Assembly (NCBI RefSeq): GCF_016278365.1
Contig: NZ_JADQBZ010000008.1
Coordinates: forward strand, 1-64,000
From: Methanolobus sp.
GTDB taxonomy: Archaea > Halobacteriota > Methanosarcinia > Methanosarcinales > Methanosarcinaceae
DNA: 64,000 bases
Direction of reading: 5' to 3'
Position numbers and translations under genes: made by a program. The notes beneath the pieces are model-generated. The model was not told where the DNA came from. It did not search any database and saw nothing but the letters and a program-made list of their open reading frames with translations. Below are positions 4,440 to 62,218 of this stretch, piece after piece. Numbering within the stretch: the stretch's first letter is position 1; each line of letters begins with the position of its first letter.

Positions 4440-4898
4440 TTATGTAATACGTTTTTTGCTTGATGTTTTATGAAAAATGGATATCAAATAGAATGCTAAT
4501 ACACGTAAAAGTGCAAAACACCTGAAAATCCGATTTATACAAAACCCATTTGCAATGGCCGTATTGCAATAAAAATCCCAAGTGAAGGCCATTTAGCTAT
4601 CAAGTGTGGAATAAACTATGTTTTCACCATATATAAATAAACTGTTGGATAAAAATACATAGGTACTGGCTCCCATTATCGAATTATCCTGTAAACAGGT
4701 GATGTACCACTTTTTAAAATGAATAAGTTTCTGCTTTTTGTTTTTTTCTAAATTACATCCAGAAATAATAATCATTGAATAATTTAAAGCTTGCATATTT
4801 TAAAAGCGTCCTTGGATTTAACAATGGTTTAGATTAAATAAGAACATGTAGTTACATGTTAAGTGTCAGGGAAGTTTCCGGGGCATCCGTATATATGG
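4440..4898. other. AT-rich intergenic region
   Basis: Long AT-rich gap between divergent genes. A 67-codon minus-strand ORF at 4593-4796 has no recognisable features and is not called. No RNA gene is evident. Confidence 0.35.
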
Positions 4899-5081
4899 AT
4901 GGGGAACAAGCATATTTCCTGGTATGATTGGGGGGATGAATTGTTGAAACAGCTAAAAGAATGTCCTGAGTGTAAGGCACGTCTGCGTGACCTGTACCAG
5001 AATATACAGCATTGTGAGACTTGTGGATACTGGACACAAAAAGGAACTGCCAGACTGGATTCACTAATGGTGTTTGCATAA
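4899..5081 (+). CDS. Small zinc-ribbon protein, function unknown
   Basis: A 60-residue protein (72 residues if a GTG at 4863 is used). It has two cysteine knuckles, CPEC and CETC, about 18 residues apart, with the acidic/basic stretch RLRDLYQNIQH between them: a zinc-ribbon layout. ATG at 4899 was preferred over the GTG because it gives a compact protein (MGNKHISWYDWGD) and the extra residues look unstructured. The next small gene starts 15 bases downstream with a strong ribosome-binding site that overlaps this stop codon, so the two are probably co-transcribed. Confidence 0.5.
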   Translation: MGNKHISWYDWGDELLKQLKECPECKARLRDLYQNIQHCETCGYWTQKGTARLDSLMVFA

Positions 5082-10253: not shown

Positions 10254-10540
10254 ATTGATTTACCTCTGATGTTTTCCGAAAAGATTGTTTTCGTATATAA
10301 TATCCTATGCCATCGGCATATATATAACTTTTCAAAAAACTAATTTGCGAGATAACCAAGCTAACTTGATTTAGTTCAGGACTGTATACATATTTTGGGA
10401 ACATATGATCAATTCAGCGAATGAATTTTTGATGTCATCAAAATATATGTGAGGATATGATTTGAAGTAGGTTTTAAACAAACTAATGCCACTATAAAAT
10501 AAATATGGATTGATTTAAGTAAAAGAGATTACAATTATTT

Positions 10541-10640
10541 ATTGCGGGTTATGCGAGTGGCGTAACAGAGGTATTGGGGAATATCTCGGATTCGTAAGGA
10601 GAGAGGCACCCTAAGCGTGGTGGTTTCGGGTGCCTTACCA
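10541..10640 (+). ncRNA. Structured RNA-like repeat element, copy 1
   Basis: Three consecutive hairpins: P1 10549-10565 (TTATGC-loop-GCGTAA), P2 10569-10586 (AGGTATT-GGGG-AATATCT, one G-U) and P3 10605-10634 (GGCACCC ... GGGTGCC) with the loop GCGTGGTGGTTT shared by all four copies. It lies between a small minus-strand gene and the 3' end of the phytol-kinase-like gene. Orientation is assigned from the other copies. It may be an RNA gene or a small mobile repeat; no protein is encoded. Confidence 0.7.
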
Positions 10641-10664
10641 CCTTCTGTAATTATATCTTCTATT

Positions 10665-25488: not shown

Positions 25489-28400
25489 ATGTTTAACGAT
25501 AGAAGAAAGGTACAGGAAGAAATGATTAAAGTACTGGATGAGTTCAGGCGGGGAAATATTGAAACCCGCATGAATGAACAATCTAACCAGTTAAACAAGA
25601 AGTTAAGTGGAGACTTGAACCTCCTGCTTGATGACTATCAAAACTTAAGATCCCAGCTAGATATATTAGAAACATCCGGCAGGAAGACAATGGAAGAATC
25701 AAGAGCCAGAGTTGAAATGCTCAATGAGATACCCACACCTGTCATGGCAGTTGACAAAGAGTTCAATGTCACCTTCATGAATGCAAGCGGTGCTGCTGCT
25801 GTGAGGAAGACACCCGAAGGATGCCTGGGACAGAAATGCTACACTCTTTTTAATACTCCTCATTGTAATACTGAGAATTGCCAGGTAGCAAAAGCTATGA
25901 AAACCGGCACAGTCTGTACGGCAGATACAATCGCAAAACTGCCAGGTGGTGAGATTCCCATCCGCTATACAGGTACTTCTCTTAAAGATGTGAATGGTAA
26001 TGTTATAGGCGCGCTGGAGTATGTGCTGGATATAACTGCAGAGACAAATGTTACTGCTGAAGTCCAGAAACTGGCAGAAGCTGCTGTAAACGGCAGGCTG
26101 GATACAAGGGCAGACCCGGACAAGTTCTCAGGTAATAACAGGGAGATAATTTTGGGCTTCAATGAAACCCTTGACTCGGTAATAGATCCCCTCAATGTCG
26201 CTGCCGAATATATTGACCGCATATCCAAGGGGGAGATACCTAATAGGGTCACCGATGAATACAAGGGTGATTTCAACGAGATAAAGAACAACCTTAACCA
26301 GTGTATCGATGCAATAAATGCGCTGGTCACAGATGCAAATCTGCTCTCAAAGGCTGCAGTTGAGGGTAAACTTGATACCCGTGCTGATGCTTCCAGGCAT
26401 CAGGGGGACTACAAGGCAATTGTTGAAGGTGTCAATGATGCTCTTGATTCAGTGATAGGTCCACTTAACGTGGCTGCTGAATATGTTGACCGGATATCTC
26501 ATGGGGAAATCCCGGAAAAAATCACTGATAATTATAATGGAGATTTCAACGAGATAAAGAACAATCTCAACCAGTGTATCGATGCAGTAAGTGCACTTGT
26601 TGGTGATGCCAATATGCTTTCCAAGGCTGCTGTTGATGGTAAACTTGATACTCGTGCTGATGCTTCCAGGCATCAGGGAGATTACAGGGCTATCGTTGAA
26701 GGCGTCAACGCCACTCTGGACGCTGTCATTGGTCCGCTTAATGTGGCTGCAGAATATGTAGACAGGATATCACATGGAGAGCTCCCCGACAAGATCACTG
26801 ACAATTACAATGGTGATTTCAATGAGATCAAGAACAACCTGAATCGTTGCATAGATGCAATAAATGCACTGGTTGCTGATGCTAATATGCTTTCTAGGGC
26901 TGCGGTTGAGGGAAAGCTCGATACCCGTGCCGATGTCACCGGGCATAGGGGAGATTACAGGGCTATTGTAGAAGGTGTCAATGCTACCCTGGATGCTGTT
27001 ATCGGTCCGCTCAATGTAGCTGCAGAATATGTTGACCGGATTGGGAAAGGTGAGATGCCGGACAAGATTACTGATGATTACAATGGTGATTTCAATGAGA
27101 TCAAGAATAACCTCAACCAATGTATCGAGGGATTAGGTGCTCTTGTAGAGTGCAATAATGTCCTTCAGAGGCTTGCAATGAATGACTATACCCAGAAGAT
27201 AGAGGGTAGCCACACCGGAATTTTCGGGGAGATAGCGAAGGCTTCAAATGAAGTGCTGGGTCATTCCATTGTGATTCAGGATACTGTAAAACAGATCTCG
27301 GTGGGCAACCTTGGAATGTTGGACACTTATAGGAAGATCCAGAGACGGTCAGAGAACGATCAACTCATGCCAGCATTCATTTCCATGATGGAGAATATAG
27401 AAGGACTTGCAGATGAATTCATGAAAATGGGTACTGCTGCAATGGAAGGCAGGCTTGAACACAGAGCTAATGCAAGTGTGTTCGAAGGCAAATATCATGA
27501 AGCTATAATGGCAGTCAATAATTCATTTGATGCTGTCATCTGCCCACTCAATGTTGCTTCTGAATACTTTGAAAGGATTTCCGTAGGCGATATACCTAAA
27601 GAGATAACAGATGTTTATTGTGGGGACTTTGACAAGATCAAGAGTAACCTCAACAGATGTATCTTTGCAATTAAAGCCTTGGTAGATGACGCTGAAATGC
27701 TGGCACTGGCAGGAGCTAGCGGCCAGTTAAGTACCCGCGCAGACACTTCTAACCATCAGGGAGATTACCGCAAGATCGTAGAAGGTGTTAACAGTTGTCT
27801 GGATGCCGTCATAGGTCCCCTGAACGAAGCTTCAAGGGTGATCACAGCTTATTCCGAAGGAGACCTGAGCACAAGAGTGACAATTAATGCAAAAGGTGAC
27901 TTCAAATTATTAGGCGATACCTTAGATGGATTTGGTGATACACTGCAGAGCATTATCAATGATTCATGCCAAGTTCTGGCTTTGGTTGCATCTAATGACC
28001 TTACAAGAGCTGTGCAGGTTCATGGAGTTGGGGATTTCATACAACTTACTGATGGTGTGGAAAATTGCAGGCTTTCCTTAAATGAGGTCGTTGCCATTGT
28101 AAAAAAACAATCCGAGAATATAGCAGCAGCAGCCCAAGAAATATCAAGTTCGAGCGAGGAACTGTCAGCTACCAGCGAGCAGATAACCGGCACGGTTGGT
28201 GAGATATCTAAAGGTGCTCAGGAACAGGCCATCAAGGTCGAAGAGGTTTCCCGTACAATGAGTGATATGAGTAAAAGTGTTCAGGAAGTAGCATGCCACT
28301 CTCAGCAGGCAGCAGGGAACACTGTAGAGTCTAATAATCTCATGAAAAACCTGGGAAATATGTCTAAAGACCTGCTACTGAAAATGGATAACATAAAATC

Positions 28401-31241: not shown

Positions 31242-31490
31242 GGAATAATCAAATCCTTGTATATCCTTCATTATCCAATATGGAAACAAAATCTAATATA
31301 TCCGGAAAGAATGATCTTTACAGCCCTTTTTTTTAGTGCTTAAGCTTAAGTGTTTAAACTTCAGTGCGCAAATGAAAGTTCAATGCCATTGAAATGAATA
31401 AGCGTTTTAGAAAATCACTCATAGTGTCATCTTCAATCGCAATGGCAAATTAACCAAGGTTTAGGTTAAATAAAAACAGGTTCTAGTATG

Positions 31491-31614
31491 TGTTGCGGGT
31501 CGTGGGGAAAATGAACCGCAACACGGGAGTGGATCAATTGAGAGATGTTGGGGAACATCTCGGATTCGCAAGGAGAGAGGCGCCTTAAAGCGTGGTGGTT
31601 TCCAGGCGTCTCAT
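31491..31614 (+). ncRNA. Structured RNA-like repeat element, copy 2
   Basis: P1 GTTGCGG/CCGCAAC (31492-31522), P2 AGATGTT-GGGG-AACATCT (31543-31560, perfect 7 bp) and P3 GAGGCGCC/GGCGTCTC (31577-31612) with the invariant loop GCGTGGTGGTTT. Compared with copy 3, one P2 pair is G-C here and A-T there, and one P3 pair is changed on both sides. This copy is directly followed by copy 3. Confidence 0.75.
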
Positions 31615-31621
31615 CCTCTAT

Positions 31622-31726
31622 TCACAACAGGGTTGTGGATGTTGGTGGTTGAAGAGATATTGGGGAATATCTTGGATTCGTAAGGAGAGAGGCACCTTAG
31701 GGCGTGGTGGTTTTCAGGTGTCTCAC
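31622..31726 (+). ncRNA. Structured RNA-like repeat element, copy 3
   Basis: P1 CACAAC/GTTGTG (31623-31637), P2 AGATATT-GGGG-AATATCT (31655-31672, perfect) and P3 GAGGCACC/GGTGTCTC (31689-31724) with the same 12-nt loop core. It is in tandem with copy 2 and ends 235 bases before the TIR-domain gene, so both copies could lie in one leader transcript or be separate RNA genes. Confidence 0.75.
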
Positions 31727-31960
31727 CTTATCCTTTACTAGTCCTACAAAGTCAAAGCTAGTATAAAACCCATTCCCTTTAGCCGGAAGGTGTTTTCCGA
31801 CAAAGAAAATAAACTGTTCTTTTCTGATGGCTTTTTACCTTAATGTCTTTTCTCATATTTCTCATCAGGATATTCTGTTTTCAAATGACGCTAATGAATA
31901 AGATATTCTTCCCGTAGTCGTGAACCTATTATATCAGTAAAGATATCATTTTATCTCTGT

Positions 31961-32524
31961 ATGATTGACAGGATATACATTTCCTATACTGAAAATGACG
32001 AACTCCTTGCGCAGGAACTGGCGCAGGCGCTATGGGCTGTGAACCTGGAGAGTTCCTCTTCCATGTACAGTAAAGTTCTTTATATTTCCATGGCGCAACG
32101 TATCCGTTTTGGTATCAGCCATTCAGACTGCATGATAGTTATTCTAACCAGGGAGAGCGCCCTGTCACCGCGCGTCAACCAGGAAATAGGTCTGGCTGCA
32201 TCAGAATGTGACAGGCTGGTTATTGTCCTTGCAGAAAAGGGTGTTGAGCTTCCCATACTAGTCCAAGATATAAAACCAATATTGTTCTCGCAGGATACCT
32301 ATACGGATGCTCTGGGATACCTGATATATACTTTGAGGAACCTTACCAGATTCGAATGGCTCAGGATACAATGCCCCCATTGCGGGGAGGAAATGACCCA
32401 GTACATCACGCCGCAGGATGAAGTGGACAGGTCCCTGATGACAGGAACTCAGCTAAACACGATGTGCAACTACTGTGAAAGTGAGCTATTTCTTGATCCA
32501 AGGACATTCAAGCCTGTCCTATGA
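31961..32524 (+). CDS. TIR-domain protein with C-terminal zinc ribbon
   Basis: A 187-residue protein. Residues 1-125 form a TIR fold: IYISYTENDELLAQELAQAL at the N-terminus, DCMIVILTRESALSPRVNQE near residue 57. Glu75 (in NQEIGLAA) is in the position of the catalytic glutamate of NAD-cleaving TIR domains. Residues 138-178 carry two Cys pairs, CPHCGEE and CNYCESE, a zinc ribbon. Prokaryotic TIR proteins are often anti-virus effectors or NAD hydrolases. No sensor partner is obvious; a winged-helix gene follows 88 bases downstream. Confidence 0.75.
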   Translation: MIDRIYISYTENDELLAQELAQALWAVNLESSSSMYSKVLYISMAQRIRFGISHSDCMIVILTRESALSPRVNQEIGLAASECDRLVIVLAEKGVELPILVQDIKPILFSQDTYTDALGYLIYTLRNLTRFEWLRIQCPHCGEEMTQYITPQDEVDRSLMTGTQLNTMCNYCESELFLDPRTFKPVL

Positions 32525-57504: not shown

Positions 57505-58311
57505 ATGCCATCAATGAAAAAGTCATTGCTTGATGTGCTGTTCATGTCAGAGAAACGAAAACAAGTGCTTTTGCTATTGCAGGATAGTCCAAAGGGAATG
57601 GAAGAGATTCTTAAGTCTCTTGATACCAGCAGACAGGCATTACTTCCACAGATAAGGATACTGGAAGAGCATCACCTTGTTGATCATCACAGGGATAATT
57701 ATGAGCTGACAGTCATTGGAAAACTGATAGTTAATGAAATGAAACCCTTTGTAGATACTCTTGAGACTATTGATAGCCATATCTCTTATTTGGGAACTCA
57801 TGATATTGATTTTATTCCTTCTCACATACTAAAAAGAATTAAAGACATCAAGGGTTGCGAGGTCATCGAGCCGAGTCTGGTGAATATATATGAGATCAAC
57901 ATGGATTTTGTTGAAATGTCAAAGGAATCAAGCTCACTTTTCTTTATATTCACTTTTATGCACCCTGCTTTTCCTACGATAATGGAGCAATTTATCCGCA
58001 ACAACATAAATGTTTCAATGGTGGTGAGCAAGGAAATGCTCAAAAAAATAACCGAAGAGTGGCAGGATGAATTCTATAGGTTTGTTTCATCCGGGAAAGT
58101 TAAATTCTACTTATGCCAAAAAGACATTCGATTGCTATCATTGTCTTTAAGTGATGATTGCTTTGTTCTACGATTATTTTCTAAAGATAATGAATTCAGC
58201 AACAGGCAATTATTCTGCTGCAATCCTGAAGCATATCAATGGAGCAAAGACCTTTTTGAGTATTATCTAAAGGATTCGATACTGGTAACTATGTTATCAA
58301 GCCGACCTTAA
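57505..58311 (+). CDS. DUF1724-family methanogen transcriptional regulator
   Basis: A 268-residue two-domain regulator. Residues 1-80 form a winged helix (KRKQVLLLLQDSPKGMEEIL, then RQALLPQIRILEEHHLVDHH). The C-terminal 130-268 is the DUF1724 domain (MVVSKEMLKKITEEWQ, VKFYLCQKDIRLLSLSLSDD). Members such as the Msr proteins control methyltransferase genes in Methanosarcina. The target here is not evident; the ORF could also start at the second ATG (57514). Confidence 0.87.
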   Translation: MPSMKKSLLDVLFMSEKRKQVLLLLQDSPKGMEEILKSLDTSRQALLPQIRILEEHHLVDHHRDNYELTVIGKLIVNEMKPFVDTLETIDSHISYLGTHDIDFIPSHILKRIKDIKGCEVIEPSLVNIYEINMDFVEMSKESSSLFFIFTFMHPAFPTIMEQFIRNNINVSMVVSKEMLKKITEEWQDEFYRFVSSGKVKFYLCQKDIRLLSLSLSDDCFVLRLFSKDNEFSNRQLFCCNPEAYQWSKDLFEYYLKDSILVTMLSSRP

Positions 58312-60184: not shown

Positions 60185-61624
60185 TCACATCGCATCTTTT
60201 GAGGCCTTGGAGAAGTATTCGATTGCCTGTGCCAGTTCCTCATGGTCTTTGGCATATTGCGCAATATCCATGTTCTTAAGATAGGCCTCACATGCCTGGA
60301 CCAGGGCTTTTGCTCCCCCTTGCGTTCCACCTGGATGGGCATGCACGCCTGAACCCATGGTAGTAATGAAATCCACGTTTCCCATCACATCTATAAAGGG
60401 TTTCAGCCTGATGGGATTAAGCCCGCCGGAAACGATGGGACAGCATTTCTTCATAGCTCTCCAGCTATCATCTTCCAGGATAACATGGTGAGCCATATCC
60501 TCGTTCACAAGGGTCATGATATCTTTATCGGCATCCGGTATCTTTGACCAGGACTGCTCAAAGAAGTGCCCTTTGGATCTCAGGTACAGGATACCGTTCG
60601 CGGCAACAACATCCTCTTCGGGGGTGCCTTTCATCTTACCGACCCCCGCCGTGCCGGTATGGATTCCGGAGGCACCTGCAAGACGTGCAAATTTGGACAG
60701 TACAAGTACGGAGAATCCGAGCGGGTTCTCCGGTCTTGTGAAAGCCCCGTGACCTGCCCTGTGGAAATGGATGAAAACATCCGGGTATCTTCTCCTGAGA
60801 GTCTGGACAGCCATCCAGCCGGCGGTTATCCCGTCTATCAGGAATGCATAGCTTCCGTGTTCAAAACCTGCATTGACGATCATCTCGCATCTTTCGATCA
60901 TAGTGTCAAAATCAGCGGCTGAGACATTGAAAGAGTGGACTTTCGTTTTCCCCGTTTCCTTCACTGCCTTGTCCATAGCTTCCTTGACATGCTTCACCAT
61001 TTTGTCATATGGGCAGAAATCCTGGTTTGCCTGAGGTTCATCGTTCTTGACGAAATCCCCTCCGCCAACCCAGAAATCATAGCAGACCTCTGCATATTCT
61101 GCAGAAGTGAGTCCCATCTTCGGTTTCACGATAGTGCCAAGGATGGGCCTGTTATATACGCCAAGATATTTGCGCATATCATCCACAGTGTAACCGGGAC
61201 CGTCATATTGTTCAAGCATTGATGGCGGGAACCATACATCCATCAATTTCAGGGCCTTAACTTCCTTCATTCCCAGGATATTCCCGACTATATAGGTCAG
61301 GATATTCTGGACATTACCGCCCCTGTCAAAGAGTCTCCATGGATAAGCTATCCATACAAGGTTCCTTTCCAGGTCAAGCTGGTAAACAAGGGCATTCATT
61401 ACCTTGGAAAAAGAGGTCTCGGTATTTACTTTGAAATTTGTCCCGGTAGATGATTCTGCTGCAACTTCCGCAGCAGTCTGCAGTATGTTCAACCTTCCTT
61501 CCGGAACTAAATGAAAGACCCCAAGCAGATATTCCCCATTCCGGGGGTCGGACAGCTTAAGATTCACATAGCCCTGTTGTTTGGGATTCAGCGATTGTAC
61601 CAATTGCTCTTCATTCAGGCTCAT
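60185..61624 (-). CDS. rbcL: RuBisCO large subunit, form II/III
   Basis: A 479-residue RuBisCO very close to the Methanococcoides form II/III enzyme. The start chosen gives MSLNEEQLVQSLNPKQQ; seven more codons are open upstream. Catalytic motifs: GTIVKPKMGL near residue 166, the carbamylated Lys in GGDFVKNDEP near residue 193, HFHRAGHGAF near residue 292 and SGGLNP near residue 400. In methanogens it uses ribulose-1,5-bisphosphate produced from AMP or from PRPP-derived sugars rather than in a full Calvin cycle. A structured RNA-like element lies upstream. Confidence 0.95.
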   Translation of the reverse strand: MSLNEEQLVQSLNPKQQGYVNLKLSDPRNGEYLLGVFHLVPEGRLNILQTAAEVAAESSTGTNFKVNTETSFSKVMNALVYQLDLERNLVWIAYPWRLFDRGGNVQNILTYIVGNILGMKEVKALKLMDVWFPPSMLEQYDGPGYTVDDMRKYLGVYNRPILGTIVKPKMGLTSAEYAEVCYDFWVGGGDFVKNDEPQANQDFCPYDKMVKHVKEAMDKAVKETGKTKVHSFNVSAADFDTMIERCEMIVNAGFEHGSYAFLIDGITAGWMAVQTLRRRYPDVFIHFHRAGHGAFTRPENPLGFSVLVLSKFARLAGASGIHTGTAGVGKMKGTPEEDVVAANGILYLRSKGHFFEQSWSKIPDADKDIMTLVNEDMAHHVILEDDSWRAMKKCCPIVSGGLNPIRLKPFIDVMGNVDFITTMGSGVHAHPGGTQGGAKALVQACEAYLKNMDIAQYAKDHEELAQAIEYFSKASKDAM

Positions 61625-61777
61625 AAGAATAATAACAGTCTGCAATCTATTTGAGTTTTTGGAATCGCCGGGAAGTCAGATTTGAGTTATAAGCAACAGC
61701 TATAGACAGAGCTTCACTATAAACGAATCATAATATAGACATATATGAACATTAAAACAGTATTTTTAAGGAAAGAT

Positions 61778-61895
61778 GAGGTACCTGGAAACCACCACGC
61801 TTTAAGGCACCTCTGTCCTTACACATCCGGAATATTCCCCAATAACCGGATAAGTTACTTAATTCATTTGCAAGTTATTTCCCTAACCCGCAATA
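61778..61895 (-). ncRNA. Structured RNA-like repeat element, copy 4
   Basis: Read on the minus strand: P1 TTGCGGGTTA-loop-TAACTTGCAA (10 bp with two G-U), P2 around TATT-GGGG-AATA, closed outside by ATCCGG/CCGGAT, and P3 GAGGTGCC/GGTACCTC with the same loop GCGTGGTGGTTT. P2 and P3 stems differ in sequence from the other copies but keep pairing. It ends 153 bases before the RuBisCO start, in the same direction. Confidence 0.7.
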
Positions 61896-62218
61896 GGGAA
61901 TAGGCACTTTATTTATTTAACTTAAACTCGTTATAATTAGATACTTAACTATATATTTCAATGTAATTGAAAATTCAATCGTCATTTTACGAACAAATTG
62001 TACCAAATTGAAATAAGAGTATGATATCTGCTTACTAGATGTCAGTGTCGAACCTTTTTCATGGATTTATACTACATATCATTTTCGGAATGGTCACTAA
62101 AATCTGGTAGTTATATGAAATGGAAAGAGTACAAAATGCAAGGGTTTAAGGTTTGCTGCAAAGCCTCAATAAGTATGATTTTTATGATAGAACAGCGCTT
62201 AACTCTGATGCATCAGTT
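61896..62218. other. AT-rich intergenic region
   Basis: No gene seen. AT-rich runs upstream of the repeat element could provide its promoter (TATTTATTTAACTTAAACTC near 61910 on either strand). The rest follows the 3' end of the histidine kinase gene. Confidence 0.35.

Follow-up and report, generated by a model that had tools for sequence, protein, structure and literature searches.

The 64,000-nucleotide stretch of Methanolobus sp. DNA analysed here (the window) carries four copies of a structured element that belongs to a new archaeal family, marked by a covariance model, a promoter that is nearly private to it and a co-expanding family of regulators. On the reading we favour, this is probably a family of non-coding small RNAs (sRNAs), lineage-specific and multi-copy, which are transcribed independently and act in trans within the circuit of FilR1-type wHTH regulators. 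Part of the family had probably been seen already in 2015, uncharacterised, among the cold-induced sRNAs of Methanolobus psychrophilus R15.

Copies of the element in the window

The initial annotation had placed four copies at 10541-10640 (+), 31491-31614 (+), 31622-31726 (+) and 61778-61895 (-), and both places and strands were confirmed. Copy 1, here delimited at 10541..10646 (+), folds into three hairpins with the conserved loops TTGGGGAA and GCGTGGTGGTTT (covariance model match 10563-10639, 87.8 bits; fold z = -3.8, this and the following z values being against dinucleotide shuffles). Upstream of it, at 10510..10526 (+), lies TTGATTTAAGTAAAAGA, by its sequence a weak TATA/BRE-like element that has diverged from the family consensus and gave no match to the anchored promoter pattern in a pattern search. 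Copies 2 and 3 form a tandem pair, which is preceded at 31449..31473 (+) by the promoter ATTAACCAAGGTTTAGGTTAAATAA, whose AT box, BRE and TATA box show 0 mismatches to the family consensus. Copy 2 (31490..31622, +) is full length with three hairpins (match 31537-31615, 106 bits; fold z = -6.2), and site comparison identified its orthologues in five further genomes (G006, G011, G021, G023 and G040). Copy 3 (31622..31735, +), the second unit, was delimited by its model match (31649-31727, 94.5 bits) and its fold; it retains hairpins 2 and 3 and lacks both a promoter of its own and the standard first hairpin, in whose position stands an unrelated short hairpin, CACAAC/GTTGTG. The three-hairpin design proposed for all four copies needs this qualification for copy 3. 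A TIR-domain protein gene (31961-32524, +) follows the tandem pair and still lies beside it in related genomes.

Copy 4 (61772..61898, -; match 61775-61853, 86 bits; fold z = -3.3) has its promoter, ATTATAACGAGTTTAAGTTAAATAA, at 61913..61937 (-), with 2 mismatches to the family pattern, and lies upstream of and co-oriented with a RuBisCO gene (60185-61645, -) at a distance of 130 nt. The window also holds one member of the co-expanded regulator family, a FilR1-type gene at 57505..58311 (+) encoding HVO_A0261_N and FilR1_middle domains (PF25213, E 3.3e-12; PF08350, E 1.1e-27), which lies about 3.5 kb from copy 4 and does not adjoin it. The details on which the element had first been singled out were recovered in the window sequence: TTGGGGAA and GCGTGGTGGTTT are identical in 4/4 copies, one stem changes on both sides, from AGATGTT/AACATCT to AGATATT/AATATCT, and the third stem occurs in the four variants described. 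The promoter, the linkage to FilR1 and the patchy presence within the genus had gone unnoticed in the initial annotation.

Covariation and distribution of the family

The element is a selected RNA, as had been proposed from the four window copies, and the proposal is borne out by covariation over 143 distinct copies and by the failure of the mobile-element alternative discussed below. Across these copies two-sided changes occur at 20/21 pairs and 95.3% of cells are paired, in an alignment that was fitted to the covariance model and is hence biased toward the structure; six pairs already showed two-sided changes in a smaller MAFFT alignment made before the model. None of 500 shuffles reached the observed values on any of five covariation measures, and sliding the partner by 1-3 columns abolished the signal in every control. 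Hairpin 1 lies outside the covariance model and was checked copy by copy: it forms in 68 of 69 non-redundant full-length copies through 62 distinct stems. Unguided RNAalifold on full-length copies recovers hairpin 3 and part of hairpin 2 only, since the subtypes of hairpin 1 misalign. In nearly every copy loops 2 and 3 are fixed and the stems vary freely, which argues for an RNA rather than a coding sequence, and no open reading frame common to the copies was noticed. The Shine-Dalgarno-like AAGGAG is probably not exposed in the RNA, because AAGG tends, when single sequences are folded, to pair with a CCUU-like stretch 3' of hairpin 3.

A covariance model built from 13 copies detected 15 copies in this Methanolobus genome and more than 150 in 11 of 27 Methanolobus genomes, with a maximum of 32 in one genome, and 0 copies in 211 other genomes of the class. 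The exact 12-nt loop alone has 14 occurrences in the 2.87-Mb genome, and the reversed pattern has none. One exact match to the loop pattern was met in a bacterial genome, in the Portibacter marinus record NZ_JAJNKB010000001.1, and would be due to chance or contamination. The first impression that no known RNA class carries this loop also holds: no Rfam family passed its gathering threshold, the window yielding only a tRNA, and the best sub-threshold matches to the element were at chance level.

One sRNA-bearing genome, G040, is almost surely that of M. psychrophilus R15, because its position 26,651 falls within a PAS-HisKA-REC hybrid kinase, in agreement with the position published in the R15 transcription-start study (PMC5378194). 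It holds about 20 family copies, of which about 14 bear promoters with upstream boxes; examples lie at 214455-214636 (+), 279624-279702 (-), 602027-602209 (-), 760148-760226 (-) and 2934096-2934173 (+). Chained matches in R15 gave several repeat groups and do not single out the family as the only repeated intergenic one. At one R15 site (3027385-3027458, -; copy L074) both ends of the element are normal and an inserted inverted repeat, CTGCTGTAC...GTACAGCAG, rearranges hairpins 1 and 2.

A shared promoter

One kind of promoter precedes most first or single copies. In a profile built from 66 non-redundant copies aligned at their TATA boxes, the core consists of the TATA box GTTAWATA with a BRE-like GGTTTAG immediately upstream, followed further upstream by three AT-rich boxes about 20 bp apart (relative to the TATA box, ATTAA at -16 to -12, CAAAA..ATA at about -38 to -31 and AAAA at about -57 to -53); hairpin 1 begins 28-29 nt past the TATA start in most copies. 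Searching the whole genome for the core with up to 3 mismatches returned 16 matches, 11 of them before sRNA copies, against 1 for the control, and the pattern is nearly private to the family. The spacing of the upstream boxes suggests proteins bound along the same side of the helix. In tandem pairs the second unit has no such promoter and is probably co-transcribed with the first. Most full copies carry the same kind of promoter, on which account they would form one co-regulated set.

The ATTAA box often lies within inverted repeats that differ from copy to copy (GTTCGTA..TTAAGAAC, CCGAT..ATCGG and CCTCTG..CAGAGG, for example in copies L081, L082 and L086), and these repeats are possible operators for different FilR1 paralogs. 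A second repeated element with a promoter of this kind occurs in the window at 4817-5080 (+) and elsewhere in the genome (C4:284508 and C7:10509); its leader contains GTGGGGAA-like motifs and precedes an open reading frame of some 40 codons that encodes two CxxC pairs (KQLKECPECKARL...QHCETCGYW), and the whole is possibly another co-regulated multi-copy transcript.

Linkage to FilR1-type regulators

A gene for a FilR1-type wHTH regulator is the nearest neighbour at 53 of 116 sites. The neighbouring protein family has a match to FilR1_middle (PF08350) and a weak to clear one to HVO_A0261_N (PF25213), so that it belongs among the FilR1/HVO_A0261-type regulators; it differs from them in that no REC domain was detected in the Methanolobus members, which are about 262 aa long, and no sRNA partner for such regulators is described in the literature found. 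The Methanosaeta FilR1 binds DNA at its own promoter and at methanogenesis promoters (PMC3991700). Within 1.2 Mb of R15 the neighbour is present at 8 of 15 sites where 0.7 would be expected (binomial P ~1e-7). Copy numbers also rise together, with a median of 34 FilR1 genes in genomes with the sRNA against 10 in genomes without it (P = 5e-4), and with a correlation of sRNA and FilR1 counts of rho 0.74 over 27 genomes and 0.80 within the 11, on raw counts that ignore phylogeny. On the strength of this linkage and of the parallel rise in gene numbers, we lean toward placing the sRNAs in a regulatory circuit of these regulators.

The linkage could itself stem from the duplication of a cassette. 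An sRNA and a FilR1 gene may duplicate passively as a unit, with linkage and co-expansion as hitch-hiking and with the sRNAs acting on unrelated targets or on translation generally in the cold, and we give this reading a substantial minority weight. The regulator gene lies downstream and convergent at 31 sites, 23 of them at a near-constant spacing of 81-88 nt as expected of one copied cassette, and upstream and co-oriented at 8; a FilR1 neighbour is missing at roughly half of the copies, among them every copy in the window. Against passive copying, the fixed loops and the private promoter are kept in copies that lack such a neighbour, and genomes with the sRNA contain a particular N-terminal FilR1 subtype that is almost never found without it, the coding pattern MKK(P/S)LLDV giving 60 matches in sRNA-bearing genomes and 2 in the 16 genomes that lack the sRNA.

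Pairing of the invariant loop with regulator mRNAs

In many FilR1 mRNAs, codons 2-6 could pair with the invariant loop over 11 uninterrupted base pairs, GUGGUGGUUUC:GAAACCAUUAC. This pairing reaches -10.59 kcal/mol against -9.42 (sd 0.32) when the codons are replaced by synonymous ones at the frequencies that the family itself uses, and 0 of 300 recodings were as strong, in a test on 52 FilR1 representatives below 60% protein identity that are related paralogs and therefore not fully independent. Only 1-3 of 150 shuffled loops matched the observed pairing, and no excess at FilR1 start regions was found for UUGGGGAA, for the GGAUUCG..AAGGAGAG segment or for the reversed loop. When every start region within 1.2 Mb of R15 is considered, the FilR1 excess is weak (P = 0.09, with 3 of 43 in the top 5%). 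Given the relatedness of the paralogs and the lack of a clear FilR1 enrichment among start regions, we put forward pairing at the FilR1 start codons tentatively, as a suggestive mechanism. On paper, the loop may also pair with the 16S 3' end (GGUGGU with AUCACC).

The genome-wide weakness of the mRNA pairing lends weight to a different mode of action, by which the RNAs are protein-binding decoys of CsrB-like or 6S-like logic: the fixed loops UUGGGGAA and GUGGUG would bind an RNA-binding protein or FilR1 itself, and the many copies would titrate it. Such a role would suit the high copy number, the tandem pairs and the pattern seen in nearly every copy, with two invariant loops carried by freely varying stems. 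Yet a protein partner that binds RNA is not known, CsrA belongs to bacteria, and the HVO_A0261_N and FilR1_middle domain pair is known for binding DNA, not RNA; we rate titration as rather unlikely. Both the decoy and the hitch-hiking cassette are live rivals of a trans-acting family in the FilR1 circuit.

Mobile elements and leader sequences

A MITE or other non-autonomous mobile element with hairpins as a by-product was one of the outcomes that the initial annotation had named as refuting a selected RNA. The many hairpin-rich copies, their patchiness among species and two R15 copies with nearly identical tandem units could be taken in its favour, but we reject it as highly improbable in view of a conserved private promoter with fixed spacing, strong two-sided covariation, orthologous sites in up to six species (the 31.5-kb site is common to six genomes and the 10.5-kb site to four), the lack of terminal inverted repeats, target-site duplications or precise empty sites among the copies compared, and 0 matches of the sRNA sequence to viral contigs. 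In 6/6 genomes of one well-supported clade the site before the RuBisCO gene holds copy 4, in other Methanolobus it is empty, and comparison of filled with empty genomes disclosed neither insertion boundaries nor a target duplication. Presence of the family on the RuBisCO tree is patchy, requiring 5 changes, and losses or transfers have therefore occurred.

A cis-acting, riboswitch-like leader of downstream genes, which the co-oriented placement of copy 4 before the RuBisCO gene might recall, is equally improbable and is ruled out by gene orientation as a general reading, because neighbours vary from copy to copy and the commonest FilR1 arrangement is convergent, so that most copies cannot be leaders.

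Discussion

The evidence assembled here favours a promoter-driven, trans-acting, dosage-type set of sRNAs that would be wired to the FilR1 network, each RNA predicted to be about 105-145 nt long with three stem-loops. As to how such a set might work, a tentative proposal is that loop GCGUGGUGGUUU pairs with codons 2-6 of FilR1-family mRNAs and blocks their translation, that FilR1 proteins may in turn act on the sRNA promoters, and that the many copies would provide dosage. A more elaborate scheme, which we hold to be improbable as a whole, would have paralogous regulators and sRNAs expanding together as cassettes under a shared cold-responsive promoter, with one loop silencing the regulator family at codons 2-6 and the regulators acting on copy-specific promoter boxes.

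A connection to cold rests on R15. The differential RNA-seq study of this strain describes nine highly conserved cold-induced sRNAs with a 'cold box' motif upstream of their promoters (PMC5378194), and these resemble the present family in being multi-copy and intergenic in the same genome and in having a conserved motif ahead of the promoter. We infer that the two are quite likely the same, in which case the set would be switched on in the cold. The main text of that study contains neither sequences nor a structure, and does not deal with covariation, phyletic range or linkage to FilR1.

The Methanosarcinales already have a trans-acting sRNA in sRNA162 of Methanosarcina mazei (PMC3510493). The Methanolobus family is like sRNA162, sRNA154 and sRNA41 of that organism in its own promoters and conserved stem-loops. 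The latter two are likewise trans-acting sRNAs of the Methanosarcinales, and all three are single-copy, whereas the Methanolobus family is multi-copy, has no Rfam match and is absent from the other genomes of the class that were searched. Multicopy sRNA sets are familiar from bacteria, as in LhrC1-5 of Listeria, Qrr of Vibrio and CsrB/C. The family shares with them several near-identical structured sRNAs, fixed loops on varying stems and, probably, a common stress control, and differs in being archaeal, in reaching up to 32 copies, in its tie to an expanded family of transcription regulators and in the lack of any sequence relation.

Archaeal sRNAs for which a family structure, a shared promoter and a candidate target class are all in hand are rare, and a covariance model with more than 150 members is now available for this one. 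The uncharacterised cold-induced sRNAs of a psychrophilic methanogen are thereby given a defined promoter and a link to FilR1-type regulators, at the strength given above for their identity with the family, and the link between the copy numbers of sRNAs and regulators makes the role of multi-copy archaeal sRNAs directly testable.
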